Part shown: positions 1,993-57,111 of the stretch, one piece after another
Layout: each line of letters begins with the position of its first letter
Numbering within the stretch: position 1 is the first letter of the stretch
Assembly: GCA_002205965.3 (NCBI GenBank)
Contig: NADL03000552.1
Location: forward strand, 275,596 to 339,595
Direction: 5' to 3'
Length of the DNA: 64,000 bases
Source of the DNA: Kappaphycus alvarezii
Taxonomy: Eukaryota; Rhodophyta; Florideophyceae; Gigartinales; Solieriaceae
Position numbers and translations under genes: made by a program
Notes under the pieces: generated by a model
What the model saw: only the letters and a program-made list of their open reading frames with translations
Told to the model about the DNA's origin: nothing
Database searches by the model: none

Positions 1993-2625
1993 TTAGCCTA
2001 TGTAGTGTCAATCCTGTTGCTGCCGTTTGGTGGTTGAGGGCGGCAGAAAAAATAATGAAATAGAAGCGGACTTTTCCCTTTTTGTGTGTGTGTCCCCTTT
2101 TCCACTCCCGGTAGGCCCGGAGGCGGTATTTATGCGGGTGGGCGGTGTATGCATACATCAGATTGAGCTGCACTCCGCCCATCTAAAAATTAAAAATAAT
2201 CATAAAACTGCAGAAAATAACTAAAACATAGGCCAGACTACAGTAGCTCCAGTGTAGAGGGTCATAGAAATAAAAATAACTCATGGAAGTGCCCAAATTC
2301 AGACGTTTTCTAGAAGCATCCACGAGCTCACAACACCACCCCGGGCCCAGATGGAATCCCGGCGCACCATAAAACCGTTGACTCGCTCGAGCCCCGAACC
2401 TCATCACTGCGTCTTAACAGTACGAGCAAGCGATCCTTCCGTTTCGGCGGATACCTCAAATCACTGCCCGCTAACTCTCCTTCCTTGAGTGTTGCCGTCC
2501 TCTTCTCAGAACGCAAGTCGATTTAGGGCAGCTAAAGCCCTCTGGGACTGCCCCATCCTTGTTACTACGAGAGGGGGGTTAAACGGCATCAAACGCATCC
2601 GAAAATCCGTGTGCGGACTATTACG
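1993..2625. other. Spacer without recognisable gene
   Basis: I see no coherent coding pattern here apart from short chance frames. The last 150 bases before 2626 are more GC-rich than the rest and would hold the promoter of the next ORF, but no TATA-like box is obvious. Confidence 0.4.
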
Positions 2626-3947
2626 ATGGCGAAATCCAGACAGACCGCCGAGAAATCGACCGGGGGGAACCCCCCCGAAAGCAGCTCTGGCAGAAAGCGG
2701 CGCGGAAGACCGCTGGCAAACCCCTTCCGCGCAACAACCCGGTCGTCTCGAAGTCTCCCGGTTCCTCGTCCGAGCCCTACCGGACCGCGGAATACTTTTT
2801 CATCAACAATCTTCGCGCGAACGTGAGCAAGCGCAAGGTGATAGAGCATTTGAACCGACCGGATAAGATCAAGATTCAGAAATCAAGAGTCAAGGGTCCT
2901 TTGCTCAATGGCATCTCTTTTGGACTTTCGATTGGCGGTTTCCAGGGTGCTAAGCCGGCGTCAACGGAAGATTCTTATCACGAACTAGAGGTCCTTTATG
3001 GAAGAAATATCGCGCACTTCGCGGCCTCTAAGAAATGTGTAGAGAGCATCGAGGGGGATCTTGCGGTACGACTCAGCCTAACAGAGTCGCTCGCCGACGA
3101 GGATGACTATTTGGAGTTCCCTGCGTTTCCCGAATGGATAATCTCAGCCGTTGTTTGGAGAGCCCCTGAAGGGTTTAAAGATAGCTCCGCCGGTCGCTAT
3201 TTCGGAGTTGATGAGGAAACCAAGGAAGAGCACCCTATCGACCTCTACACCTTTTTCTTCAACGAGATACCTCCCGGCTACGCTGACCACAATCCGTCTA
3301 AGCGTAACCTCCGGGAAGAGAAGGCGAACGATCGAGTCATCAACGGGGCTTTTGGCAGGAACCTAAGTTCGAGATTGGGTGTCATCGTGCAGATCGACCG
3401 TTGGTGTCAGAGGAATCCTAACGAGTGCTTTCGCGTCTTATTCCCAATGTCGAGGGTACCTTCACCTCTTTCTGCTCCGCACCTTCTCATGGACCATGTC
3501 GTGCGTTTCCGGGATTTCGAGGGGCGTTGCCTGCAAGCTGTAGTCGCGAACGCCGTTTCCCTTATCATTGGTGCGGGCCCGGCAGATCATTATTTGAACA
3601 CGGATTATACCCGCGACCATGACACTCTAGAGAGAAGCTTGGCTACTGCCCTAGGTCTCTTACCTTTGCCGACGTCCAAAAAGTTTTATGCGAAGTCTAT
3701 CAAAGCCTTGTGGTCCAAATTTACTTCGCTTTTATCTAGATATTTTTATACTGTATCTACCCCTCTGAATCGATCCCGAATCAAGTTCTTTTTCCCTTTT
3801 TGCTTACCTCCTCCTCCAAATTCGCTTTTTTGGGAAAAAGGGCGCAAATGCACTACTACAAAATCCCTTACAGATTTACTTTACCTGTTCCTAATCAATA
3901 GAACCTGCCCCGGGATCGTATTTAAACCCCTTTATTCCAAGTTTTAA
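2626..3947 (+). CDS. Histone H3-tail-like N-terminus joined to an unknown domain (one frameshift)
   Basis: The ATG at 2626 has a favourable context (A at -3, G at +4). Its frame reads an H3-like start containing QTAEKSTGG, then breaks in a 7-C run at 2670-2676. The next frame continues PRKQLWQKAARKT and stays open to a stop at 3945-3947. One extra C would give a 440-residue protein. Over the first 28 residues after Met, 19 match the histone H3 tail by eye, including the K9-S10, K18, K23 and K27 equivalents; the K4 position is Arg. Residues about 40-65 are Ser/Pro-rich. Residues about 66-355 form a mixed-charge domain I do not recognise, with no histone fold, signal peptide or membrane segment. 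The last 80 or so residues are low-complexity and match sequence next to another LTR-B near 28.0 kb, so the true end may be near 3720. It could be a transposon accessory protein or a captured chromatin gene. Confidence 0.6.
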
Positions 3948-5036
3948 ACGTCCCCGATCATTTTGCTCATCACCCCTCTCCTTCCACACACCCAAAACAC
4001 CCTATATTACCCTTTATTCCCAAAACCCTACCAAAATGACCAATCTACGCCCCTCGAAAGTCATTGCCAAAAAACGCCATCCCCGCCCCCTAAACTCTAT
4101 TTCCCTACTCTCTTTCGGACCTACTGACCGCGAGGACTACCTGCGCCGGCAAACCAAGAAAAAGGTCATCGAATTCTTGCGTCGCTTCTTTATTGAGGAT
4201 GAGGCGAAGGAGGTAGGAAATGGGCGGGAGTAGGACATCGAGGAGGGAGCTAGGGAGACCTTCGAGGAGTGGGTAGCCCCTGAGTTGGTCTACGAGGTTA
4301 ATAACGAGGAGGACGGGAATGATGAGGTGGAAAAGGAGGAAGAGGAAGAGGACGAGGACTAGTTGGATGAGGGAACAGGGGGCATGCAAAATGTGGGACT
4401 GGTGGGGCCTGGACTGGAGAGTGTGGAACAAGTGGTGCCGACGCTGGAACCGGATCGAGATATCTTTAGTAGTTTAGATATCTCTCAGGTGGAAATAGAG
4501 AGCTATGAGCCGTTCGCAGATATTTGTAGTGACTGTTTGGACAGCATGGATATTTTAGAAGAGTTGTTTGGATCTGATTTAGAGAATGAGAAATAAGAGG
4601 ACCTCATTGATTGTTATTTTCTTAAGTATCTTTTGTTTTGAGTATATCACCCACACAAATTGTTTCTATCCATTTCCTGGTACCTTCTGTAGGTTTGTTC
4701 GGACTTTAGGGGTAGCCGAAAGTCTAGTTAAGCTGAGTAAACTGCTTCTTCATAAAGAGAAAAAGCATGTTGGCAGACAACTTCAAGCCCAGTCCCAAAT
4801 AGTTAGGAAGTTGACAGTCAACTTCAGACCCAAGAAGCGTTTATTTTACGCTAGTCGCTAAGCATAGGTGGTAGACCCTGCCCCTTCCATACTTGATTGC
4901 AGCCCTCTCAACTGTCTTCCCTATCCACTCCTTTTTGTTCGTTCAACCATACCACGGTAGCACTTTTGTCGCTTGCAACACCTCCTTGGGGTAATTGGTT
5001 CTGAAGATCTCTTCCTCTGCCGATTTATCCCTATCA
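3705..5036 (+). mobile_element. LTR-B, long gypsy-type LTR with internal ORF, copy 1
   Basis: The right end ATCCCTATCA at 5036 matches the 3' ends of the other LTRs of this family. The last 330 bp or so (from about 4703) are closely similar to the R/U5 half of the LTR at 11618-12330, while the upstream part is unrelated to it and instead resembles 26697-28020 on the minus strand. The 5' boundary is uncertain; similarity to the minus-strand copy begins near 3705. Immediately to the right is copia RNase H sequence, so this LTR sits inside an older copia element. Whether it is a solo LTR or the 3' LTR of a truncated element is not resolved. Confidence 0.6.
4036..4596 (+). pseudogene. Acidic protein encoded in LTR-B U3, copy 1
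   Basis: An ATG (context ACCAAAATG) opens one reading frame of 187 codons to a TAA at 4594-4596, interrupted by TAG at about 4231 and 4360. The N-terminal third is basic and contains FGPTDREDYLRRQTKK. The middle is a long Glu/Asp run. The C-terminus has a CxxC pair followed by MDILEELFGSDLE. The minus-strand relic at 27130-27660 keeps the same frame and most of these residues, and four more relics keep the C-terminal motif, so it was under protein-level constraint. No family is recognised. The acidic-hydrophobic C-terminus resembles transcription-activation domains, which is inference only. Confidence 0.6.
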
Positions 5037-5475
5037 GCAACCATAATAGCAGAAGATTTGTCAGATCCGTCATAGAAAGGGAGGCGTATGCCTTCGCAGA
5101 CGGGATGGTACATGTAATTACGCCACAGGACGACCTAGAGAAACTGCTTGGGCGTAAGATCACCCTAAAATGTATAACCGGCCACATCTTCCATGCATTA
5201 CAATAACCCAAAATTTTCCCCTAAAATTGTTCACTGAATCTCACTCCCTCTATGATATCATCACAAAAAATGCGATCACTACAAAAAAGAGGTTGATGAT
5301 AGGCGTGAAGGCTGTAAGAGATAGTTACGAGAGGATGAAATTATCAGATGTTGAAATGGTACCTTCGCAACGAAATCCATCAGAGGCCCTGACTAAAAAG
5401 AAGCCAACCTCAGTCCTCGAAAGGGTTTTCGACAGGGTCCTCGACGAGGGGCACATGGAATATGGTATAAAGCTC
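5037..5475 (+). pseudogene. Copia RNase H fragment
   Basis: The frame RRFVRSVIEREAYAFADG...LLGRKITLK, then FTESHSLYDIITK and KKRLMIGVKAVRDSYE, matches the C-terminal RNase H of copia polyproteins; compare DSKSLFDVISK in the element at 52.5-58.0 kb. The left end is cut by LTR-B at 5036. The frame is broken only by a 56-bp insertion at 5172-5227, and removing it restores the reading exactly. Reverse transcriptase, integrase and gag are absent here. Confidence 0.7.
5172..5227 (+). mobile_element. 56-bp type B insertion inside copia RNase H
   Basis: The unit begins GTATAACCGG and ends in a C-run plus TAAAAT. It is flanked by CCCTAAAAT at 5163-5171 and 5219-5227, part of which may belong to the motif itself. 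Excising one unit and one repeat rejoins ITLK to LFTESHSLYD in frame. The same unit occurs at 1487-1543 and near 9728, so a very short sequence seems to have moved on its own, or it is what is left after internal deletion of a longer element. Confidence 0.6.
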
Positions 5476-5539
5476 TGTGTCATAAGACAAGCTCAACAAT
5501 ATAACGGGCCCAACTTTCGAATACATCAGTTGAGGGGGA

Positions 5540-5592
5540 GGGGAAGTCTTGTATGTTTTTACTGTTGGAAGATACATTCGATCTAGGGGAGT
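5540..5592 (-). repeat. Type C terminal motif, diverged
   Basis: The sequence GTTTTTACTGTTGGAAGATA followed by CATTCGATCTA resembles the reverse complement of the motif at 12485-12576, 18766-18858 and 45840-45932. No partner end is visible nearby. Confidence 0.4.
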
Positions 5593-6774
5593 GTACAATA
5601 GTTGCAACGAAACAGATGAATAGGCACTCCGGAATTAAGACACGTGAGCCTTTAGAATTGCATTAATACTCAATGAAGTAAAGTTTCATTAATCAAGTTG
5701 TATAATTTGTTACCGCGATTTGAGTTAAGGCTTATTTAAGTGATGGGACAAAAAGGGTGATCGCATGATGTGGTAGACTTCAACAGAGGTTGATTTTTCC
5801 TTACATTACGTGATAGCTTAGACCCAGAGCAATTATCTGCCATTGGTCCTTTCGACCCCCTTAAGTGGCTAAACTTTCTCGATTCCAACAAACTCAAATT
5901 ATCTGTTTGTCTAACTTCAAGCTGCTGGAGCTGTCCTCACTACTGCTAATTAGAGCAGACACTGTCTCTAAACTGCAAATCTCAGATGAATTAGGAATGT
6001 CTACTTCAACAGAATTGACAATCTCTCAATTACAAGTCTCAGATGAATTAGTCCAACAAAGACCGTGGCCAGAGCGCCGATCCGAATGGTTGTGCATTCA
6101 GAGTGGATAAAGATTGATCGACGCAACCACGGCCCCACCACTCAGAGGGGTCATTCCGAAGTAAAGTATCATAGTTATTGGAATCCTCAGCGTACCTCCG
6201 ACTAATGCCAACGCCCTCCCCTCGCGCGTTGACATCCACAGGTACCATAACACTTCGTGCTGTAAGCACACTTGCACTAGCCTTGGGAGGTAGTCACTCC
6301 TGAGTCTGTCTTCTTTTTAGACCCTCCAGCACACAGACCTGCCCCCACCCGCCTCGGGAAATTGTCGTCCTACATCTCTACTTGGTTACGCACCCAAGAT
6401 CCACGCCCTCTGTATATCGACGGCTCGGAAACTCTTTTGCTTGACTACGGTGGGGCGACGTCGGCTTTATCACTACAAGCATTGCTACAATAATGAAGCG
6501 AGTGGAGTGGTAAGTTTATCTCCTCATAATGAAATTGCTCTACCAGGCAAACTGCTTCGATAGTCTATTATGTAGTCGAATAGTTAAGCATCGAAGTTGT
6601 CTCTCTGATAGCGATATTTGTGCTAAATAGTGAATTGTGACTATTGACCTCTTTTCGCACCTTTTCATCAACATGATCACGGGATCGGGGCTTCTGAAAA
6701 GCCTTTTTACAAGCCGATTCGAACACACCGCAAACCAAGCCGCTCCCAACGCCCTACCCGCCCCTCGGGCCGTC
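5593..6774. other. Intergenic region downstream of the lactamase-fold gene
   Basis: No gene is recognised. A CTCAGATGAATTAG segment is repeated at about 5983 and 6038. Short frames near 6330-6480 are GC-rich but match nothing I know. The far end (6600-6774) is the presumed 3' flank of the next gene, which is transcribed leftward. Confidence 0.4.
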
Positions 6775-7907
6775 CTAAAAGTCAACCAACAAAAACTGCA
6801 ATGCGGTAAAACAGTGGCCCCTCGCCGTAATATCCACCGCCCCAATCCGACACCCCCACTTGCTCACAACAATCCTATAACACTCGTCAATTTGCAACCG
6901 TCTCAAAACCCTAATAAACACAAACCATGCATTCCCAAACGCCACATTCCCCGGAGTAAACTGGTCCGCAGCCCCTCCCGCCGCAAGTTGCGGTCCACCC
7001 ACCGTCCTAAATGCCACCTTCGCTGCCTCCAACACATCCTGCGCATAACTCAACGACGTACGCACGTCCTCGCGATCGCCGATGCGAATATGACCGCCCA
7101 CGTAAACCGCGAAATCGGTGGCCAAAATGCGCTGATGCGCACGAATGTACTCGCGGAAATCCTGTGTGATGGCGAAATTAAACGGCGGTGCAAATCGGGG
7201 AAACACGATATCGACCATCATGGTGACGCCTGGCCCATCACGACTCGGAGGGATATGCAAGAGCATGTCCTGCTGGCTATGACCGCCTACGATGCGCATG
7301 TTGACACGTAGTTGAGGGTCGAGGATGAGGGTCCTGCCTTTGCGGCCGACAGTGACGGTCGGGGGTAAGGCGCGATTGGTAGTGGAATCACGGATGAGAC
7401 GCCTGGATTCTGCGGTGCCCCAGATGAGGACGCGAGCGTTTGGGAAGCGACGGGTCATAAAGTTGAGGAAGCGGGTTGTGGCGCCGATGTGGTCAAAGTG
7501 TGCGTGGGAGTAGACGACGTCGATGCGGGTGGGGATGGTGCCGTTGAGAATTTGGAGGGCGGCGTCTGTGGTGCGGGTCATGCTGCCGACGGGGGTGTTG
7601 GAGGCGTCGTTGTCGACGAGGTCGAGGAGGATGAGGCGGGTGTTGAGGTGGAGCATGAGGGAGAGGTAGAAGCCGTCGTTGTAGATGTAAACGCCGCGAC
7701 GGGGGGTTGTGAGGGTGAAGGGGGCGGCTTGAGGGGGAGGAAGGAGGAGGCGGGGACGGGGAGGAGGTTTGCGCAGATTTGATCGGTGGTTAGGGTGGAG
7801 AGGCAGGAGCGCACTGCGGGGCAGAGGGTTGTGTTGGTTGTGTTGGTGGCATTGGTTGGAGGGAGGAGAAGGGGGAGGAGGATGAGGAGTATGAGGAGAG
7901 AGGACAT
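6775..7907 (-). CDS. Secreted metallo-beta-lactamase-fold hydrolase (one frameshift)
   Basis: The ATG at 7907-7905 (context GCCAAAATG) starts a classic signal peptide, MSSLLILLILLPLLLPP, followed by overlapping N-glycosylation sequons (NATNTTNTT). The frame is lost near 7740-7750 in a C-rich run; the next frame carries the catalytic fold to a TAG at 6775-6777. The span is one base short of 378 codons, so a 1-base deletion explains it. The fold shows HAHFDHIGA (HxHxDH at about 7506-7489), a GGHSQQD histidine, an acidic MMVDI segment and a final VGGHIRIG histidine, in the right order for a two-metal site. Substrate is unknown; such secreted enzymes hydrolyse varied esters, thioesters or lactams. 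The break may be a real mutation or an assembly error. Confidence 0.8.
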
Positions 7908-7979
7908 TTTGGCTGAGGATGGTTGGGATGGCTGGGGTTGATGGGTGGAGGTATTTGGGGAGGTGGGATGGAGCAGGTA

Positions 7980-8345
7980 CTTATATACAGTAGCAGAGCG
8001 GGGAGGGTTTAAAGTCGGTGGATGTGTTGGATGGAATGAGGCGGGTGTTCCGCGGGCGGCTTTGGGGCAGGGGGTGCGATTCCGGGGGGGGGGGGGTGGG
8101 AACAATAGGGGAGGAGATTGTCCTGCGGAGGAAGTGATGGAGATATTACGGCAGTGGTATGGTATGCGATATCTGATGAGGTTGGAGATTGGGACTGGGC
8201 GGATTGCTGTGGAGTATTGAAGTGCAGAGTTTGCAAGTTGAGTACATCGCCTCCGATGAGGTATGTACATTTCTGTACATGAGACAATATAGCATGGCAC
8301 GTGCGCACAAACAGTACAGTACAGTACAGTACAGTACAGAATAGT
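7980..8345 (-). promoter_or_regulatory. Upstream region of the lactamase-fold gene with (ACAGT)n tract
   Basis: About 400 bp upstream of the start codon lies a perfect pentanucleotide run at 8310-8340 (about six ACAGT units). Further GTACA-rich words occur at 8265-8285, and a G-run lies at 8084-8097. A similar CTGTA run lies about 200 bp upstream of the dehydrogenase at the right end of the window. Promoter function is inferred from position only. Confidence 0.35.
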
Positions 8346-11276: not shown

Positions 11277-11349
11277 TAAAAAGCCGGTTCAAGACCCCCC
11301 AGCAGGCAGGCTGATTTGGACATTACTGCCGCGGCAGCGTGCCTCTGAG
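11276..11349 (-). pseudogene. LINE C-terminal fragment (STLGGWHPDA family), short copy
   Basis: On the minus strand only the last 24 codons survive: LTQRHAAAAVMSKSACL and a GLEPAF end with TAG at 11276-11278. It matches the end of the sense copy at 9661. Confidence 0.6.
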
Positions 11350-11422
11350 TAAGTGGTGGTGGTAGATCTTTAAGTGTCGTACAATGTCGCACAGAAGCGT
11401 GCGGAGGGTATTCATAAATTAA

Positions 11423-11561
11423 CTACGGATGCGGGCGGCGGGTAGAAACCTGTCGCGCCTGCATTATTTGGAGGCTAAATGCAAAACGGGTAACGAAGTC
11501 GCGGAGCTCCTGTTGAGGGGAGGAACCGCGACGGGAAGCAGCGAAGGAAGCAAGGCGACTG
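11423..11561 (-). pseudogene. LINE C-terminal fragment (PVGIDIYGAL family), copy 2
   Basis: The minus-strand frame reads LASFAASRRGSSPQQE, then FVTRFAFSLQIMQAR and a stop at 11423-11425. It is almost identical to 1005-1145, including about 75 bp of 3' untranslated sequence down to 11345. It is truncated upstream at 11561, close to the solo LTR at 11618. Confidence 0.65.
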
Positions 11562-11617
11562 AGTATGTACCGTACGGACTTAGGGGTTTTAGTTTTGACA
11601 AGAGATGTGATGTGCGC

Positions 11618-35237: not shown

Positions 35238-35950
35238 TGATGTGCGCAAATTCGCACACGAAAAAAATCTACATGAGAACCATATTTGTATAGTGTCGGA
35301 ATTGGGAAGATATTTTTACAGTTTTTGAATTTGCAAGATATTTTTAATTTGGGTGAGTGTGGCAAGTTCATCGGTTGATTTTTTTTTATTTTAGGACACG
35401 CTGTCATAGTAGATGTCAGTACAGTTCCAGGTTTTGGGTGATACTACGAGTGACTCTGAAAGGTGTATATAATGGCCACATCAATTCCCACCCCTGGCCG
35501 ATGGGTGGCTGGCATAGGTATGGCACCTAGATATTTACGTTGAGGAAATATCTTTCTAATAGTCTCTCTGGTTCACACGATTCCCGTGAATACATTTTAT
35601 GGTTATTAGTATGTTTGAGATTTTGGGTAGCCAAAAGTCTATATAAGCGAGTAAACTGCTTCCTTTAGTGGAGGTGAAGCAAGTTGGCAGACAACTTCAA
35701 GCCCAGTCCCAAATAGTTAGGAAGTTGAGAGTCAACTTCAGACCCAAGAAGAATTTATTTTACGCTAGTCACTAAGCATAGGTGGTAGACCCTGCCCCTT
35801 CCATACTTGCTTGTAGCCCATTCAACTGTCTTCCCTATCCACTCCTTTTGTTCGTTCAACTATACCACGGTAGCACTTTTGTCGCTTGCAACACCTCCTT
35901 CTTGGGGTAATTGGTTCTGAGATCTCTTCCCCTGCTGATTTATCCCTACA
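35238..35950 (+). repeat. 5' LTR (LTR-A) of the gypsy element
   Basis: Starts TGATGTGCGC and ends ATCCCTACA. Contains the CTATATAAG box at about 35640, followed by the R/U5 block that is shared with LTR-B. The solo LTR at 11618-12330 is a close relative. Confidence 0.9.
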
Positions 35951-35970
35951 TTTGGTACTCTTGTGGAGGG
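35951..35970 (+). other. Putative primer-binding site of the gypsy element
   Basis: TTTGGTACTCTTGTGGAGG directly follows the 5' LTR. TGG close to the LTR end is the expected complement of a tRNA CCA tail. The gypsy fragment left of 44131 has a related TTTGTTAACTTGTGTAGG in the same place. The tRNA is not identified. Confidence 0.4.
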
Positions 35971-36036
35971 GTTGCACCCGAGGTAATCGAGTGTGAAGTA
36001 TTAGGTCCACTTGCAGTTTGATTTTTTTTTTTTTTT

Positions 36037-36960
36037 GCAGCAATGGATCTAATGCTGCTCGTATATCTCAGGGAGCAAGAATGAAGACGTTGAAGAGTTT
36101 CTTTACACATATGTTAATGTTTTAATGCGAGAAAAGAGCGATGAGAGAAGGCCGCAAGTATCTTCGCCTATCTTTCTGGTGACGCAAAAAGCAAATACAA
36201 AGCTAAGTTTATTGACGGGTGGTCCCTTAATGGGAGTGGGCGCAACTTCGGTGAGGTATGTGAGTGGCTTGTGAGAGAATATGCTAAGGAGGTGGAACCA
36301 GATGAGATGATTCGTACCGCCATAGAGGCCCGGCTCAACTTCGACGATTTGTTAAGCTCATTGGTATACTTGTGTGATCTCTATGAAAAGGCGGGTTCAA
36401 CGCCCAAGCCAAGTACGGAATGCTGCGTAAGGCGGCGATGGGGATAAGCGGCTCTCCGATTTCCTCCTCATCAAGGGCCCTCACACTTTTAATGAACTGA
36501 AGGGTACCATAGTAGAATTTGTCAAAAATTCGGAGACGTTTCAGTCACTGAGTGAGTACCGAGGGAAACCCGTACATCGATGCTCGTACATCCTGAAAAG
36601 AATTATCAAAGGCCGGCTACTAGTGCAGCAGCATTGGAATCTGTCAGGAGCGATGTCAAAAACTTGGAAGAAAGGTTGGAAACCCGATTCGATAATCGAC
36701 TTGACATGATAACCTCGCAGTTGGAAAGCCTTACTCTTACCATTAAGAAGAACTAATCTGGGGCCCCTAAGGCCGCAGAAGTCTGTTCCTACTGTCACAA
36801 GCCTGGACACTTTGCAAATAGGTGTCCTGATAATCCACATAGAAACACTCGTTGTGGAAAGTGCGGTGTAGGCATCATGAAAGTAACTGCTGGTCTAAAG
36901 ACAACAGAAGAGCAAATTTATCGGAGCGAGGAGTGAGTCAGGACCAGAGATGAAAATCTT
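36037..36960 (+). pseudogene. Gypsy gag with two CCHC zinc knuckles
   Basis: Capsid-like sequence is spread over several frames (SIFAYLSGDAKSKY-like and GPHTFNELKGTIVEFVKN pieces). Near 36784-36825 is CSYCHKPGHFANRC, a perfect CX2CX4HX4C knuckle. A second, CGKCGVG then HHESNC after a frameshift, lies near 36853-36893. The related capsid piece in the fragment at 43850-44121 (SNNEDVEEFFTYM) supports assignment. Multiple frameshifts make it non-functional. Confidence 0.75.
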
Positions 36961-36981
36961 ACAAAACAGAAGGATCAAAGG

Positions 36982-38041
36982 TTGACGGATGCCGGTAACG
37001 TATCCATCGCTGAAGAAATCAGTCAAGTCAATGTGACTAAAAGGGATGGGGAAGGGAACATTTTATCGAAAAAACCTAGGCTAGATTATGGAATGCTGGA
37101 GCATATCCCAGCACCTGTACCTCCTCGAACCAAGAGGCTGATCAAGTTGTTCCAGGAGTGGGAAACACTTCGGCCAAGAAGACGAAAAAGAGTAAGAAAT
37201 TTAAGAGTATCCCGAAGGACGTACTAGAATATGTGAAGAAGTACAATTTGGTGGCTGAGCTTGCATCGGCCCCAACTGGGATAACGTTTGGTCAACTTTT
37301 GAGGGGCGACGCAGAGGATGCGAGAAAAGAACTCAAAAAAATTATCAGGTCTAATAAGTCCGCTAAGGGTAAGAAACTGTTTCTTCAATCGGCCTCGACA
37401 GCACCAAGACGTCTTAAGCTGGTACCAGTCAAAGTATTGGGAATGAAAACCCAAGCTCTTTTCGATTCGGGCGCTGTTCCAAACCTCATTTCAGAAACTT
37501 TGGTGACAGATCTAGGTCTTGAAATTATTCCAACTACTCGAAAATAACTGTGGCGGATGGAACCGTCTCAAAATGCATGGGCACTGTTGACAAGGTTTCC
37601 GTGTTCTTTGGGGACTCTAAAGTTGATGTAGACTTTCTTGTCATGATCTCCCTTTCGATGCAATCATTGGCTGCCCTACCATGGAAAGACTAGGGACCTG
37701 CATTGACTTGGGCAACCAAATCGTTTCAGTTATATTGACGGCAGAACCGTGAAGATGCCCCTGGATTTCGACAAAAGCACACATCCGGAAGATTTAAGAA
37801 ACGGACAGTGAAGATTTCACTTCTAGCTATGACAGCGAAGATTCCGAACCAACTAACACTTTCGGAAGTGGAGAAGGGTACGCTCGGGGGAATGAACATG
37901 GCATGGGATGATTATGATTCTGGGTTTGAAACAGATGAAGACTGGAATTCTAGGGTAGGTTTGACACCTGAATGTGTTTCTTTTTGCGATAATATCGAAT
38001 CAAAGGACGGAATTCGGAGCATGAAAGAAGATTACAATTGA
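36982..38041 (+). pseudogene. Gypsy protease and flanking linker
   Basis: Reading through two frames: a Lys-rich linker (KKTKKSKKFKSIPKD), then VKVLGMKTQALFDSGAVPN, where DSGA at about 37464-37475 is the retropepsin active-site triad with its following Ala. FLVMISLSMQSLAALPW-like sequence follows. A second acidic linker (DDYDSGFETDEDWNS) lies at 37895-37950 before RT. Frame shifts occur at about 37545 and 37790. Confidence 0.7.
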
Positions 38042-38221
38042 AAGGAACAAGAATATATCGAATTCCATATCTGAAGATGTGAGCACGCCGGAAGAGGTCC
38101 TTCAAAATTTGGAGGTGAGGATCAAGAAGACCAGCGCCAAATGGCAGAAATTCAAGAAAAAGTACAGCACCTTCCAGCCCCGCCTCATGAAAATATCCGA
38201 CATTAACATCTTCCGAAGTAA

Positions 38222-39410
38222 TTGCATGGAGCTTCCGATCTAAGACAAGCAAGTGTACCGGTCACTCACTCATTTGAACTTACCGATACTCAACCAATTT
38301 ACCACAGGCCTAGACGTCAACCGCCAAAATATGACCAATTTATCTCAGAGAATGTTACAAGTATGCTGGAAAATGATATTATTCGGCCAGTTTCATCCCC
38401 ATGGTCATTTCCAGTTGTGTAGCACCAAAGAAGGATGGAAAACTTCGCTTTTGCGTCGATTACCGACAACTGAACCAGAGAATGATACCCGATCGATTTC
38501 CGATTCCAAATATGGAGGAAATCCTCGAGGACTTGAAGGACGGGAGATACTTCACCTCAATTGATCTTTACACTGGTTATTGGCAGATTCCATTGGATGA
38601 AAAATGTAAGGAAAAACAACTTTTACCAGCAAAGCCGGTACATTCAGGTTCGAAGTGATGCCTTTTGGTCTCATGAACCCCAGCTACATTCCAAAGAATG
38701 ATGAACGAGGTTTTGAAAGGACTTCCATTTGCAAGAGTTTATATCGATGATGTGGTAATATTCTCAAAAAAACTTGGATCAGCACATATCGCATGTCAAT
38801 AAAGTGGTGGAGAAGATATAGGCATACAGCCTGAAAATTAAGTTGAGCAAATGCTTCTTTGCGAAAACTTCTATCCAATTACTCGGTCATATCGTCGATC
38901 AAGAGGGAATTAGAGTGGATCCAGAGAAAACGAAAAAAATCAAGTTGGCACCAAGGCCCGCTTCAAAACGGAGGTTCGAAGCTTCTTAGGACTGGTCTCA
39001 TATTACAGAAGATTTATCAAAGATTTCGCAAAGACTGCAGCACTATTACATGCCAGCACTACCAAGAACGGAAAATTTCATTGGAACAAGGAAATGCAAA
39101 CTGCATTTGAGGAGCTTAAAGATAAGCTATGTGTCCCCCAGTGCTCATGTATCCAGATTTCAAGAGACCATTTGTTGTGGAGACAGATGCCTCAGAACGG
39201 TCTTTGGGTGCCGTTTTGTCCCAAAAAGATGAAAACGGAAGACTACACCCGGTTCAATTCGCAAGTCGCACTCTGAATGATGCGGAAAAGAGATACTCAG
39301 TCTGCGAAAAGAAGCGTCTCTTTCCAAAAGAAAGATGTACATCACCGTTTGGCCCGATGGCTCGACATTTTCGCAGAATATCGGTTTGAAATTGTTGTAT
39401 AGGCCCGGAA
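38222..39410 (+). pseudogene. Gypsy reverse transcriptase and RNase H
   Basis: RT begins with YHRPRRQPPKYDQF and MLENDIIRPVSSPWSFPVV, then DGKLRFCVDYRQLNQRMIP, YFTSIDLYTGYWQIPLDE and the catalytic YIDD at 38740-38751. RNase H starts near 39129 with FVVETDASERSLGAVLSQKD and HPVQFASRTLNDAEKRYS. All gypsy landmarks are present in order, but the frame changes repeatedly (near 38420, 38640, 38780, 39120). Confidence 0.85.
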
Positions 39411-40764
39411 GCAATAATCAGCCTGCCGATTACCTATCCCGCTTGAGGGATACACTGAGTCCAAATGAAAAAGCTTCCGAGGTAATCGTCGGAGTTGTCG
39501 AGGTGCAGGTGCAGAGCAATAACGAGTACGAAAGTAAACTTCACGGACTAATTAAATTACTTGATGTACTAGAAATGAGAAAGGTTGATCTGGAACACCA
39601 AAATTGGGTACGCAGGAACCATAAGACTTTTACATTGTGGAATGGGAAACTCTTCCGAAAAACAAAAGCCGGTCCTCGACTGGTGGCCCCTATGAAAAAA
39701 GGATGAAGATCTTGAGGACTTTTCATGATGAGTTAGGGCATTGGGATCTCTAAACAACCTAAAAGTTCATTATGGAGAGATTATGGTGGCCCAGTATCCA
39801 TAAGGACGTCTATAATTTCGTGTAAAGCTGCGACAACTGTCAAAAATTCACTCCGATACGAAAGTATAAGACACTTCTAAGCTTTCCAGTTTCCGGTCTC
39901 TTTGAAACCCTCTGAATTGACTTTGCGGGCCCATTCAAGGAAACCTCTTCCGGAACACAATATCTCCTATAGGGGTGGAACACCTTACTGGATTGGCAAT
40001 AGCAGTTGCACTTGAAGAGGCCAATGCTGAAGTGGTCCTAAGATTCATCGAAAAAGAAATAATTGAACCGTTTGGTCTCCCAAAAAGGATCATCTCGGAT
40101 AACGCCCTTGTTTTACTACAACTTCACTGCTTCGTTTCTTGGAGGAAAAGGCATTCAGCTACACAGTTCTTGCATACCTCCTATGTCAGACGGGAAAGCG
40201 GAGAGGATGGTTTGGAACCATCAAACGAGCAATATCGAAAACTATGTCGGAGAATGAAATCCAGTGGAAGAAGCCCTACCAAAAGTATTATACGACTATC
40301 GTCGAAAAGAGGAAGAAGTGGACGCTCACCATTCGAGCTAATGTACGGGAGGGCTCCTAGAATGTTGCAGAGAGACATGGAAACAAATATTACCGATGAA
40401 GAAAGTAGAGAAGTCGAACTACTGGCCACCGAAGGCTGGAGATCACTCCGCGCGCTAACACAGACAAGGAAAAAGGATGCAGAGCCTCAGTCCAAACTTT
40501 TCAGTCGGCTCTAAAGTACTTGTAGCACACGGAAAAGCAATGCAACAGGCTGTGAAGTGGCCGGCCTTCCAAACAAAGTACTCGAACCCTTGCATCGTCA
40601 CGGAGGAAAGAACCCGCATTATAAGCTCTGTTCAAGCTCAGGGAAGAGATCAAGGAGGGCCATCCATGCACGTCGTCTGGCCCTTACATCAGAGGCCTGA
40701 AGAATTCCTTCTCACACAGGACTATGCGCAACCACGGGCATACTCATCTTTAACTATAGAATGA
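39411..40764 (+). pseudogene. Gypsy integrase
   Basis: The tether region includes YRPGSNNQPADYLSRL. The zinc domain shows HDELGH near 39727 and CDNC near 39832. The core has IDFAGPF near 39920, IISDN near 40092 and SDGKAERM near 40182, supplying D, D and E in different frames. The last frame (40477-40764) has FSVGSKVLVAHGKA and a WPAFQTKYSNPC-type C-terminal domain. Its TGA at 40762-40764 overlaps the ATG of the next ORF. Confidence 0.8.
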
Positions 40765-41366
40765 TTCCTATGGGAGGAAAAAGGGCCTGGGAATGGATCA
40801 TCTCGATTACGCGGGACTACTACGATCTCCACGTAATCATCCATTTCTACATTAAAATATGCCTATGTTTTCGTACGTTGAACGGACCATTGCTACCTCA
40901 AGAAGATTTCCGACTATTAATCAGAGTTCTATTCTCATTCCAAAACGGAAGGTTCACGGAAGCAGGTCCAGAGTTTGTGGAAGTCATATATCATTACTCT
41001 ATAGGAAGGTATGGAATGGTAGCTATCGGAGACTTGTCGCAAACATATCTGAACATTGTCCGTCCGATTTACGTATTTCTCAAGAACAACCAAGATGTGC
41101 GACTGAGAGGTTACAGCTTGCCCCCTGATATGGAATATCGACTGGTCCCGTATCCTCTATGGGAACCTTACGTTGCTCCGCTCAGAAACACAACCTCAGC
41201 TGAAGACCAAGATCCTCCCGAGACCGTGATGATGATACGAGCTGGACCATCAAGTGATCGGGCGGATCATCGAAGAGGGCAAGGCGTCGGGAGCAGCGAG
41301 GAAGATCGCCAAGAAGATCGCCTCAAACACCGCCTAGTCTCCCAGGGGGAAACTATGCATCCTTAA
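40761..41366 (+). CDS. Gypsy accessory ORF 1, first of two tandem homologues
   Basis: The ATG at 40761 overlaps the integrase stop as ATGA. The frame is 201 codons. Residues about 12-130 align without gaps to the next ORF, about one residue in three identical by eye: ICLCFRTLNG against ICMCFQTIHG, RVLFSF against RVFFSF, SIGRYG against TFGRFG, LVPYPLWEPY against LLPYPYSEPY. The C-terminal 60 residues are hydrophilic and may be out of frame. There is no signal peptide or clear membrane helix, so it does not look like an envelope glycoprotein. Unlike the pol genes before it, this ORF is uninterrupted. Function unknown. Confidence 0.7.
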   Translation: MIPMGGKRAWEWIISITRDYYDLHVIIHFYIKICLCFRTLNGPLLPQEDFRLLIRVLFSFQNGRFTEAGPEFVEVIYHYSIGRYGMVAIGDLSQTYLNIVRPIYVFLKNNQDVRLRGYSLPPDMEYRLVPYPLWEPYVAPLRNTTSAEDQDPPETVMMIRAGPSSDRADHRRGQGVGSSEEDRQEDRLKHRLVSQGETMHP

Positions 41367-41845
41367 TTATTGGACGGCTACCAATTAGACGTTGGCTTCG
41401 CGAAATGACAGAAGACCCTCGAGAAGCAGAAGTAATTTCCTTTTTTGCCATTAGTATTTGCATGTGCTTCCAGACCATTCACGGGGCGCACCTTACTCGT
41501 GAGGACTCAGTCCTTATGTTGCGAGTTTTTTTCTCCTTCAGATACCCGTTTCTGGACCCGTTGCCAGAAAAGTTTGCATACTACGTTTATTACCTCACAT
41601 TTGGAAGGTTTGGAGAAGTGAAACGGGAGGAGCTCATTAGAGAACACTATGAAACCATACGCCGAATCTACGAAACTCTTGACCAAGGAGATGAGCCGGT
41701 CATCGCACGGTACACACTCTCTCATCATATTGGAAATGAGCTACTACCATATCCTTACAGTGAACCCTATACTCTCCCTGATGAATGGATAGAACTCCCA
41801 CAAGAACAACAAGAGCATGAGGACGAGCCGGGACGTTCGTCTTGA
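41258..41845 (+). CDS. Gypsy accessory ORF 2, second tandem homologue
   Basis: The first ATG is at 41405 and the stop TGA at 41843-41845, but the frame is open from 41258. Its upstream part encodes an arginine/serine-rich stretch (KRARRREQRGRSPRRS) that looks like a nuclear-localisation or RNA-binding segment. The body repeats the accessory ORF 1 domain: ISICMCFQTIHG, LRVFFSFRYPF, LTFGRFG, RRIYETL, LLPYPYSEPYTLP. The end is Glu/Gln-rich. A frameshift near 41258 could join both ORFs into one protein with two domains and a basic linker. It lies 10 bp before the 3' LTR. Confidence 0.65.
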   Translation, partial: SGGSSKRARRREQRGRSPRRSPQTPPSLPGGNYASLIIGRLPIRRWLREMTEDPREAEVISFFAISICMCFQTIHGAHLTREDSVLMLRVFFSFRYPFLDPLPEKFAYYVYYLTFGRFGEVKREELIREHYETIRRIYETLDQGDEPVIARYTLSHHIGNELLPYPYSEPYTLPDEWIELPQEQQEHEDEPGRSS

Positions 41846-41855
41846 GCGGAGGGCG

Positions 41856-42574
41856 TGATGTGCGCAAATTCGCACACGAAAAAATCTAGATGAGGACCAT
41901 AATTGTATACAGTATTGGAACTGGGAAGATATTTTTACAGTTTTTGAATTTGCAAGATATTTTTAATTTGGGTGAGTGTGGCAAATTCATCGGTTGATTT
42001 TTTTATTTTAGGACACGCTGTCATAGTGATGTCAGTACAGTTCTAGGTTGTGGGTGATACTACGAGTGACTCTGAAAGGTCTATATAATGGCCACACAAT
42101 TCCCACCCCTGGCCGATGGGTGGCTGGCATAGGTATGGCACCTAGATATTTACGTTGAGGAAATATCTTCTCATAGTCTGTCTGGTTCGCACGATTCCCG
42201 TGAATACATTTTATGGTTATTAGTATGTTTGTTTGAGAATTTTGAGGTAGCCAAAAGTCTATATAAGCCGAGTAAACTGCTTCATTTAGTGGAGGTGAAG
42301 CAAGTTGGCAGACAACTTCAAGCCCAGTCTCAAATAGCTAGGAAGTTGAGAGTCAACTTCAGACCCAAGAAGAATTTATTTTACGCTAGTCACTAAGCAT
42401 AGGTGGTAGACCCTGCCCCTTCCATACTTGCTTGTAGCCCATTCAACTGTCTTCCCTATCCACTCCTTTCTGTTCGTTCAAATATACCACGGTAGCACTT
42501 TTGTCGCTTGCAACACCTTCTTCTTGGGGTAATTGGTTCTGAGGATCTCTTCCCCTGCCCATTTATCCCTAACA
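41856..42574 (+). repeat. 3' LTR (LTR-A) of the gypsy element
   Basis: Starts TGATGTGCGC, ends CCCTAACA and is followed by the GTCTT duplication. A purine-rich GAGCGGAGGG just upstream is the probable polypurine tract. Confidence 0.9.
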
Positions 42575-53489: not shown

Positions 53490-54905
53490 TTAATCTCCTT
53501 GTTTCAGTCCATCAGCAACGTTGTCCCCCAGAGCGAACGCTAGTTCACTAGTCAATGTCATGATTTCATGACGTAGATAGCCTTCGCGAGCGCACGCGAT
53601 GTCCAACATCAGCCTCTTCTCTGAGGTACGCGCACCCTTAGAGATGACATCGAACAGCGACTTGCTGTCGGTCAGTAGCTTCACGGGTAGTTTGCGGTTC
53701 GGGTGCAGATGGAGTAGCTCTTGCGAAAGAGTATACGCTGCATCGAACATATCGCTGAACGCGATGAGCTCAGCAGCCATAACAGATCTTGTCACGCGGC
53801 GAGCTTTGTAGGAGCGGTAGAAGATTGGAATTCCAGTACCGTGACCATCTGCAAGGAAGAAGACATATCCAAGCTGCGATGTGAAGTCGGCGTTCCCAGC
53901 AAAAAATGCATCAGCTAGTCCAACGATTTGCAAGGGTAGCCACATCCAGCCTGGGAAACGCAACAGCGATCTCGTTTTTTGACAACATATTTTTATCACC
54001 TTGTTGACTCGCTTGATCACTGCACTCTTCCCGACTTCAAACCTCTCCCTAGTTACCTGCGACAGCTGTGCGACCTCAAATATGCAGTCCGGGCAGCTGT
54101 GGAATATCCACATTAGCTTCATACGCGTCGAAGCAAATTGCGAGTAAACAGCATCCTCGGGCAACGGCTTGATCTTCCGTGCGTAGAGGAATTGGCCAAG
54201 AGAAATGACGCCCCTTGAGTGCACCTTGGTAGAAAAACTAGTGAAGGTGCATGGTGGATAGTCATCTTCTAACATATCGAACCTTTCCGACGTACGAACA
54301 CAGAGGTTCTTGAACCATGGGTTCCCATCACGCAGCATGTCGTTAACGTAGGGGCCCTGATAGTCCTGTATCTTTCCGTCTTTCATACGATTAGCAAGAG
54401 CGATCCGAGTGCAGACTAACCATCCCCAAGTCCGAACGGTGATGGTCATCCAGCGTCTCATGCCAAAAGGTCCCCTGACTCTCCAAGACCGTAAAGACCA
54501 CGTAGTAGCATAAGAGTTCATTAGGCGCGAGTTCAAACTCAGGAGCAGCATCACGGATGTACACATCCCTCTGTAGACTTTCCGATGACTGCAGTACGCC
54601 TGGCTAACATCGGATGTCCACACTCTGAACCCATGGATAGCGGCAAGTGCTAGTATCAGATGGACCGAGGAAGGCTGATTGGTGTAAGAAGAAGTATGCA
54701 CCAAGAGCTTCTTGAGTTTATCCTTATGACTACCTACAACGTATCGAGCCTTCCATTTCGTCTCAAAATCTTCCGAAGACTTGATCGCCAACACATATCT
54801 TGCTGGCAGCACGTTCCCATCCGGCGGAATCTCCTGCGTTAGTATGACCTTGAATGTCTTCCTGTCCATTAGATTCTGAATTTCTTTCCTCTTCGCAGCA
54901 CTCAT
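53490..54905 (-). pseudogene. Copia reverse transcriptase and RNase H
   Basis: One 471-codon frame from ATG 54905 to a stop at 53490. It starts KRKEIQNLMDRKTF, then VLPARYVLAIKSS, WKARYVV, FRVWTSDVSQAYCS. The middle part is out of frame. The catalytic motif reads YVND at 54339-54350, so the first active-site Asp is Asn. RNase H follows: GLADAFFAGNADFTSQLGYV, TDSKSLFDVISKGARTSEKR, LMLDIACAREGYL. The ATG overlaps the stop of the preceding frame as ATGA, but copia RT normally continues from integrase, so I read that as chance. Confidence 0.85.
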
Positions 54906-56085
54906 CTCAGCAGAGGAGGCCTTGGATCATCCGCATCAAAAACCTCTGTCATCATGGTAGCGTGCTCTGCACACATTACGCTACCTAGCTCTTTTACAAA
55001 CTGCGAAGATATTTCCGAAGGGTTAAGGTACGGCTTTATCTGCGACTGTGCAAAGGGTCTTGCAGCTCCTACAGTAACATCTTGAACGAATACCAATTTC
55101 TTCTCGCGATCAACAGTTTGAATAACGAAAGGTCCTTTCCATTCTCCAATTCGGTTCTCCACTTGCTTCTCACGCCAAACCAAACTTTCTGACCAACATT
55201 CAACACAACATTAGACGATGTAGGCGCAGCATGGCGTAGAGCACGTTTAACTCGAAGTTTGGCCATATGCTGCTCCATTTATTTGCGAGCGGCGGTAGCA
55301 ACACGAGCACGGCTTTCCAATGACGCGCGAGGATCTGCAGCTACATCGGTGTAGACTAGGGTAGAAGTGTATTCCCGAAGACAAGAGCAGACGGAACCAA
55401 ACCCTCAGGGCCAAGTGTATCGTTCAGGGACTTGACAGCCATTGCCAGTAGGAGCCTAGGAGAGGTATTATCGAAGTCCAGCTTCAGCTTGCGGAAGGTA
55501 TTCCGTAAGGGTTGGTGATACCTTTCACCAATTCCCAAACTTGAGTGAGCTTCGATACCAGTCCTTTGCACTTCAACCTTGCTCGCAGCTCCCAGGCTAA
55601 CGAAAATTTCACCAAACGCAGAACCTTGGTCGACGATAATCTTATGCAGCAGCCCGGTGTATATGGTTGCCCCAGCACTCCAATATCGTTGCCCAGATGG
55701 TCTTCGTAGATACAAACCGGCAAGAATGCGGCAGCACTGAAATGGGTTCCTTCATCAACGATTTGCAACACCGGTTTCCCATCCAAAAACATCACATCCA
55801 TAAACAACCTTTCGTTGAACTTCGCATTCTCAGCACCGAAAGAAACTCGGAAACGAGAAGTTCCTGCTTGCATACGTTGGCAGGGGTCACATTTCCTTGC
55901 TATACCTTCAAGTACTTCCAATGTTTCCGGTGTGGTATCCTCGGGTCTTGCGCGGCGCAGGAGCTAGTAAAGTTTCTCAGCAGACGGATGTGCACATTGC
56001 CTATGCATCTTCGTCAGCTGTTCCGTAGTGTAGAATATCGGAGTGGCAAGATCCATAGCGACATACACATGACCATGTTGACGGG
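54902..56085 (-). pseudogene. Copia integrase
   Basis: Minus-strand pieces: IFYTTEQLTKMHRQCAHPSA (zinc domain histidines) near 56040-55990, KCDPCQRMQAGT near 55880 (zinc cysteines), LFMDVMFLDGKPVLQIVDEG near 55800, IIVDQGSAFGEIFV near 55640 and HSSLGIGERYHQPLRNTF near 55530, giving the D, D, E series. The C-terminal piece 54902-55183 has ENRIGEWKGPFVIQ and FVQDVTVGAARPF. Stops and shifts near 55750 and 55350. Confidence 0.8.
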
Positions 56086-56769
56086 TCATCGGAACACTCC
56101 ACCATAGGTGTGCGGAAGGTTTACCAGAGGAACCAAGTCCTGAGCGAGTTCATGGAAAATTTTGACGGCCGGTATCCCATCATGGACTTTACTGCGGATA
56201 TGGGTGTTGACATTGCCCATCTTGCAGTCCTTCTTGAGATGATTATCGGAACCGCAGGTGTGGCATCGGAGAACTGTCCCGTCACACCCAAGATGGTTGG
56301 TACTAGCGTGACGCGGTGGACCTTGGCGAGAGTACGACTGCTTTCTCGAATAGGGAGCACGCCCATACTTTTGGTACATCTTGTTCACAGTACTAGAGTC
56401 GGCAGCGGCGTGAGTCTTCTCTTCATCATGAAGTTGGAGTCCTTCACTCAGAGCAGTCACAAATGCATTGAAGTTGAACTTCGCGGTAGTGATCTGACCA
56501 ACGGCTCGAGATGCCCACGCTTGACCAACGACGGCGGCACGGAAGAAGCGGATCTTGTTCGAATCGTGTCGGAAGTTCGGCGGACACTGCGGAGTAAGAG
56601 CGTTGATTTGGTCGATCAGCGATGTCAGACCTTCACTCAACTCAGTAATCCTCTTCTTCTTCATGAACTTCCCGATGCAAAGCTTTTCCAATTCACCCTG
56701 AACAGCCAACTGAAGAGCATCTGAGTCGTATTCATCCCGCATCATCTTCTCCAACTCCTCGAAGCCCAC
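56086..56769 (-). pseudogene. Copia gag with CCHC knuckle
   Basis: A 227-codon frame. Capsid-like part: KKKRITELSEGLTSL, CPPNFRHDSNKIRFFRAAVV, GQAWASRAVGQ. Near residue 170 is CHTCGSDNHLKKDC, a CX2CX4HX4C zinc knuckle. The homologous region of the copia element at 46-50 kb (EEDKVEYLYKAVIG) has no knuckle. Protease should follow, but no DSG/DTG motif is seen. Confidence 0.8.
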
Positions 56770-57111
56770 ATCATGAGTGGCGTTCTGGAAGAAGGAGTAC
56801 GGGCGGGGACTGAGAAAACATTGACGAAGAAGTTGGTTTTCAGGGTCGGCGACAACTCAAACAGGTCCGCACAAATGTTTTAGTCCCTGATTGTATGGTC
56901 GATTGAGTCGGTCAGGTCCCCAGAAAACTTGGAGTCCCAAAAATATTGCTGGACTGAAGATGCCTTCTTCGGGTATCCACTGTCGGATGAATCTTCCTCG
57001 GTGAAACCTTCGACGTTGGCGGGTGAGAAGATGAAGACGGCCGAGGAGGTATCGGCAAAGTTTCTTCTTCTCTAACCTTCGTGCCGATCTCCTGTTCCAC
57101 GACGACGGGTT

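Follow-up and report, generated by a model that had tools for sequence, protein, structure and literature searches.

Long terminal repeat (LTR) retrotransposons of plants are known to carry antisense additional open reading frames (ORFs) of the aORF-3R type between pol and the 3' LTR, some of whose products are nuclear and whose roles are unknown (PMC7264820, PMC11963269). Those of maize Grande (gene23), rice RIRE2 and Retand (TRP28) are present in most copies and encode a protein of unknown role. An ORF in the same place and orientation was found in a Ty3/gypsy family of the red alga Kappaphycus alvarezii. The family is represented by a truncated copy in the 64,000-nucleotide stretch of contig NADL03000552.1 that was analysed here (positions 275,596 to 339,595, forward strand; hereafter the window, to whose numbering coordinates refer unless another locus is named), and the predicted product of its antisense gene begins with a sequence resembling the N-terminal tail of histone H3. 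The plant ORFs, in contrast, are described as having no clear likeness to other proteins (PMC7264820), and those of Retand carry TRP28 and a few other domains (PMC11963269); the word 'histone' does not occur in the available text of either paper. Their hosts are plants, whereas the present host is a red alga.

Three other described systems share one part of this arrangement. Viral histone mimics, such as influenza NS1 with its C-terminal ARSK, likewise contain a short H3-tail-like sequence (PMC10208167), but the tail described here comprises about 28 residues, stands at a true N-terminus, belongs to a retroelement and has K9 mostly replaced. In Dothideomycetes (Pseudocercospora fijiensis and others), H3 coding sequence has likewise been amplified by a transposon, in this case hAT (PMC6710886). 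However, hAT is a DNA transposon, it is the H3 coding sequence itself that was transduplicated, and most copies are truncated and damaged by repeat-induced point mutation, those of P. tritici-repentis being putatively functional (PMC6710886); in the present gypsy element, only the tail is found, joined to another protein and subject to purifying selection. Bdelloid LTR retrotransposons with a captured ORF3 are likewise LTR elements with acquired extra genes, but the types described include env, DEDDy exonuclease and GDSL esterase among others, and 'histone' does not occur in the available text (PMC5408684). Among the matches listed in a literature search, as far as their available text extends, there was no retroelement protein with an H3 tail and no selected H3-tail mimic in a retroelement.

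In the window copy, the frame opened by the ATG at position 2626 (+) translates to MAKSRQTAEKSTGGNPP, and the frame that continues at 2673 translates to PRKQLWQKAARKTAGKPLPR. Together they make up an H3-tail-like N-terminus corresponding to H3 positions 1-27 (2626-2708, +), split by a frame break in a homopolymer tract, a run of C. With Met counted, the first piece shares 10 of 15 residues with H3; the second shares 11 of 14. When each was searched with phmmer against 177,635 PDB sequences, the top match was histone H3 in both cases, at E values (0.007 and 0.028) that are marginal for either piece alone; the second piece also matched the ribosome-biogenesis protein RLP24 (E 0.14). Scoring of H3-tail likeness across the window gave 62 at the 2626 ORF as opposed to 41 at the next-best site. 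Because the first Met of the long 2673 frame is residue 259, the frame running from 2583 having no Met before that point, the ATG of the tail is the natural start. The occurrence of both pieces in order and in register is evidently not due to chance, a point which the family copies described below settle. The frame break itself may be a true mutation or an assembly error. The latter is possible because the host H3 copy L068 has a similar homopolymer break: two of the five strongest host H3 loci (L068 and L069) also have N-terminal frame breaks, that of L068 lying at a C-run relative to L066, and these in turn may be assembly errors or pseudogenes.

The remainder of the ORF, comprising a linker and a novel domain, occupies 2709-3716 (+), where the family match ends. 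No Pfam family, histone families included, was matched by the window ORF, which bears out the view of the earlier note on this stretch that the part behind the tail is not a histone. The 424-residue window frame matched no PDB chain. A protein database search with the window copy as query yielded 5344 candidates, none of which reached E 0.001, and one region of the copy alone yielded 3138, none of which reached E 10. Pattern matches were obtained in IMG/VR and in prokaryote genomes, with no confirmed relative among them.

That note had also called for a search for further genomic copies, and when the assembly (336 Mb, 884 contigs) was searched, these were found in number. The window ORF matched 101 stretches (99 of 5167 first-look candidates scored) and L032, a member of a second subfamily, matched 115 (98 of 820 first-look candidates scored); with both searches pooled, the family occupies at least 124 distinct genomic places. 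The 30 best places from each search were extracted, giving 60 loci; as 8 places were common to both searches, 52 remained for comparison. Of these 52, 50 (49 of 51 if loci L050 and L063 are taken once) have an H3-tail-like stretch, at or close to the expected start, that outscored the best of 312 base shuffles; L050 and L063 lie on different contigs (C44 and C841), are 99.7% identical over the whole 3.7 kb locus and may represent a segmental duplication or uncollapsed alleles. In the two places without a tail (L008 and L019), the 5' end is missing from the alignment. In a tree of the domain, the tail is present on both sides of the midpoint root, in two deep clades. With a profile built from 81 family pieces, 134 PDB sequences scored E 10 or better; the best 60 of them were H3-type histones, headed by a Cse4 construct with an H3 tail at its start (E 4.4e-7, profile positions 1-49).

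The truncation of the window copy and the frame break within its tail could be taken as signs of a chance join, in which a decayed histone pseudogene or exon came to lie beside an unrelated ORF. The earlier note had itself named tail-less copies, or a separate decayed histone pseudogene, as what would overturn its reading, but 50 of 52 places have the tail where the start is expected, the tail occurs in both deep clades, its synonymous sites are saturated with respect to H3, and its ratio of non-synonymous to synonymous differences within one subfamily is low (values below). An origin by chance or from a pseudogene is refuted by this distribution, and its probability is put close to nil. The H3-tail-like N-terminus that the note had proposed at 2626 is instead upheld, by the PDB matches of both pieces and by the family copies.

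The anatomy of the carrier was read from a copy on contig C488 (loci L031 and L070), in which LTRs at 4243-4561 and 11292-11610 of the locus are 95.9% identical and have TG...CA ends. A 319-bp LTR and a leader of about 320 bp precede the ATG of the H3-tail ORF, which runs from 4880 to 6418 (513 codons, including one stop). On the opposite strand lie integrase (INT), RNase H (RH), reverse transcriptase (RT), protease (PR) and gag-like frames, partly broken, so that the order is gag-PR-RT-RH-INT, then the H3-tail ORF in antisense, then the 3' LTR. Pfam matches to the pol region of this copy were rve (9e-12), Integrase_H2C2 (1.9e-11), RVT_1 (8.2e-29) and RT_RNaseH_2 (1.9e-31); its PR and gag pieces had no Pfam match, and the PR piece of L033 matched Asp_protease_2 (E 9.4e-8). 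The flanks TGATT and TGATG share four of five bases, in a single copy, and make a doubtful target-site duplication. Across the 52 places, INT or RH was found antisense to and 3' of the ORF in 35 and sense there in none, the remaining 17 having neither within the flank examined; INT on the 5' side only was seen in sense in L034 and in antisense in L010. Because of the anatomy of the C488 copy and this orientation across the family, the ORF is identified, from its genomic context, as an antisense accessory gene of a Ty3/gypsy element, located between pol and the 3' LTR.

In the window, the terminal part of the carrier element, an LTR followed by the leader, lies upstream of the H3-tail ORF at 2015-2625 (+) and begins with TG at 2015. 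Homology to five other copies (L002, L003, L004, L005 and L017) begins at 2014-2015; for other copies, the start lies at 2006 or farther inward. Homology to the nearest copies spans 2014-2015 to 3716 and then stops, DNA homology to other copies never passes 3716, and many full genomic matches stop at about query residue 321. Positions 2015-3716 of the window are thus a truncated, frame-broken copy of one end of the Ty3/gypsy family, which has no pol and has lost the end of the protein at about 3716.

The age of the tail was assessed from 20 tails (12 of subfamily A, 3 of B and 5 of C) picked from the 52 places as readable in frame, with three of the five strongest host H3 loci as reference, the two with broken N-termini being omitted. 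Mean residue identity to H3 was 20.0, 21.0 and 18.6 of 28 for A, B and C, respectively, and only 8.1-9.6 of 28 third codon positions were shared with host H3. Identity between subfamilies was lower (A-B 15.6, A-C 17.4 and B-C 17.5 of 28), the tail of each subfamily being closer to H3 than to the tails of the others. For five listed tail-to-H3 pairs, the proportion of synonymous differences (pS) was 0.69-0.96 and that of non-synonymous differences (pN) 0.15-0.24. Among 16 copies of subfamily A, pooled pN/pS was 0.26 in the tail, 0.40 in the linker, 0.34 in the N-terminal domain and 0.45 in the C-terminal domain, and six pairwise ratios of non-synonymous to synonymous substitution rates (dN/dS) within this subfamily ranged from 0.21 to 0.50. 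Median column conservation was 0.775 in the tail, 0.49 in the linker and 0.71 and 0.74 in the two domains. Because third positions match host H3 poorly while residues agree, and because pN/pS in the subfamily A tail is 0.26, the tail looks both old and selected; synonymous saturation with kept residues is consistent with the H3 tail having been captured long ago and having then diverged under constraint. A recent capture of a host H3 exon was rejected, third codon positions being near chance level. Judged from the genomic copies, the anatomy of the element, its presence in many copies, the tail's great age and the purifying selection upon the tail may be regarded as established.

The residues under constraint were then compared with H3, counts being given as copies with the matching residue over copies with any residue aligned at that position. 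The initiator Met-Ala is retained (M 30/32, A 29/32), as are T3 (29/32), K4 (23/33), Q5 (29/34), S10 (29/36), T11 (30/37), G13 (30/38), P16 (33/39), R17 (35/40), L20 (37/40), K23 (37/39), A25 (34/42), R26 (36/41) and K27 (31/43); A24 is likewise conserved, and few positions in the entire protein are as conserved as K23. Lost are R2 (1/32), K9 (9/37, with Arg in 25/37), K18 (9/40), Q19 (8/38), T22 (1/37) and S28 (1/41). Residue 14 is Lys in 8/39 and Arg in 24/39, and is thus basic in 32/39. Most members of subfamilies B and C retain Lys9. The tail is not a K9 mimic throughout the family, and K9-centred mimicry of the ARKS type was rejected as a general explanation. The emphasis that the earlier note had placed on K9-S10 is thereby weakened.

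The earlier note had suggested that the protein could compete for H3 readers or writers or tether the element to chromatin. The pattern of kept and lost residues bears on two alternative roles for the tail. As a decoy, it might compete with nucleosomal H3 for HP1, K9/K27 methyltransferases or acetyltransferases and so shield the element from silencing. Conservation is specific in sequence and not merely basic (T3, Q5, S10, G13, P16, L20, A25 and K27), the kept Met-Ala start could expose an H3-like N-terminus, and viral H3-tail mimics are known (PMC10208167). Lysine is, however, rare at the modifiable positions 9 and 18, position 4 is mostly K in subfamily A, where R stands at 9 and 14, and mostly N in B and C, and only K23, and largely K27, is kept throughout as a modifiable lysine; a decoy is regarded as rather unlikely. 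Alternatively, the tail might be kept solely as a positive, flexible arm that binds DNA, RNA or nucleosomes, which would account for the retention of K or R at residues 8, 9, 14, 17, 23 and 26 in 82-97% of copies while the exact residue varies. Charge alone is no explanation for the conservation of the uncharged T3, Q5, S10, T11, G13, P16, L20, A24 and A25, and this alternative is considered less probable still than the decoy.

The 'unknown domain of about 290 residues' of the earlier note is indeed novel, but it is only the N-terminal part of a longer protein. In L031 and L033, 513 codons lie between the ATG and the end, with stops counted, and the final stretch is basic. The predicted protein of the family, of about 510 residues, begins with the H3-tail mimic (H3 1-27), continues through a short, variable linker into the novel domain and then the C-terminal domain, and closes in subfamily A with a basic tail. 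No PDB match was obtained with a profile of the N-terminal domain, the best match to a profile of the C-terminal domain had E 1, and NCBIfam and PHROGs gave no match to the non-tail domains. No Pfam histone family was matched by the 81 family pieces, with only sub-threshold similarity of about 25 residues in two C-terminal pieces to the histone-like CBFD_NFYB_HMF (E 0.17 and 0.2); five Pfam families were hit at E 0.03-0.1, each in one or two of the 81 pieces. Conserved residues of the C-terminal domain include C294 (42/50), Q409-H410 (H410 36/41) and D425 (36/40), many other columns being equally conserved. The order of C294, H410 and D425 is compatible with papain-like cysteine peptidases, an identity that serves as a lead only: no profile match favours it, and the weak sub-threshold similarities point to other families.

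The reading we favour, with a probability of roughly 0.55, is that the antisense gene of this family carries a host-derived H3-tail mimic that is kept for binding by a host H3-tail-binding factor. The tail would have been captured from host H3 and kept since such a factor recognises it. This factor would most likely be an H3-type import receptor or chaperone touching the region of about residues 14-27, and would carry the accessory protein to the nucleus and chromatin, where the C-terminal domain might favour expression or integration of the element. In the available account of Kap123, the import signal is the first 28 residues of H3, of which K14 and K23 are read together with the small neighbours of K14, according to the rule small-K-small-(X)6+-K (PMC5677370). 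The tails match this rule loosely, with K23 in 37/39, G13 in 30/38 and a basic residue at 14 in 32/39, though exactly Lys in few. Because K23, a basic residue 14 and G13 are kept, engagement of H3-type import or chaperone machinery appears somewhat more probable than a role as decoy for silencing factors. For the fuller proposal, in which the tail of host H3 was acquired by a retrotransposon, joined to a new enzyme-like protein on the antisense strand and retained by selection as a means of access to the H3 import, chaperone or chromatin machinery, the odds are put at about even.

Several observations weigh against this reading. Residue 14 is exactly Lys in only 8/39 copies (Arg in 24), whereas the Kap123 pocket is described for Lys (PMC5677370). 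In comparisons of subfamily A with B, pN/pS was 0.45 in the tail and 0.48 and 0.45 in the domains; these ratios being alike, the tail is constrained like the rest of the protein and not uniquely so. The C-terminal domain had no profile match above threshold in Pfam, PDB, NCBIfam or PHROGs. Across 64 loci, no frame opened by an ATG runs uninterrupted through the whole C-terminal domain, the longest covering 428 of about 513 codons (L032), and given this lack of an intact frame the present copies may be inactive. The fetched places, moreover, are the best-scoring ones and not a random sample.

The ORF had initially been linked to the gypsy LTR that adjoins it. This tie was rejected: the adjoining sequence (LTR-B, 3714-5037, +) belongs to a different LTR family, the true carrier being the gypsy element described above, to whose pol the ORF is antisense. 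LTR-B replaces the 3' end of the ORF, and the last 77 residues of the 3' reading derive from this unrelated LTR and not from the accessory protein. Further copies lie at 27996-26696 (-), with 76% identity over 1329 columns, and beside the C488 element in L031 (85% identity). LTR-B has an ATG ORF of its own behind a TATA-like box, which in L031 (2996-3628, -) is a 211-residue open frame with an acidic stretch.

Other features were observed elsewhere in the window. A gypsy element at 35238-42574 contains two sense ORFs (40701-41842) between INT and the 3' LTR, which are tandem duplicates that have diverged (to 32% identity over 143 residues) and have no Pfam match. An ORF at 427-915 with an RPADI motif has no Pfam match and resembles the C-terminal end of some non-LTR retrotransposons. 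Below the cut-off were a possible metallo-beta-lactamase-fold protein at 6778-7980 (-; Lactamase_B, E 0.0048) and a decayed copia-type pol at 53493-56856 (-; RVT_2, E 1.4e-5) with a zinc-knuckle ORF (E 0.0011). A short-chain dehydrogenase/reductase (SDR) gene at 63183-63998 matches red algae; among named matches it is 52% identical to Gracilaria domingensis and 48% to Agarophyton chilense, and it is up to 74% identical to others.

The origin and function of antisense ORFs in LTR retrotransposons are largely unknown, and here one of them includes part of a host chromatin protein, recognisable and under selection. Its role is therefore directly testable, by asking which host protein binds the tail and what is delivered. 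If the favoured reading is true, histone-tail mimicry would be extended from viruses to retrotransposons, and a direct clue would be gained to what antisense accessory ORFs do. The family would also reveal the H3-tail residues on which one interaction of this kind depends (T3, Q5, S10, P16-R17, L20 and K23-R26) and those that it can do without (K9 and K18).
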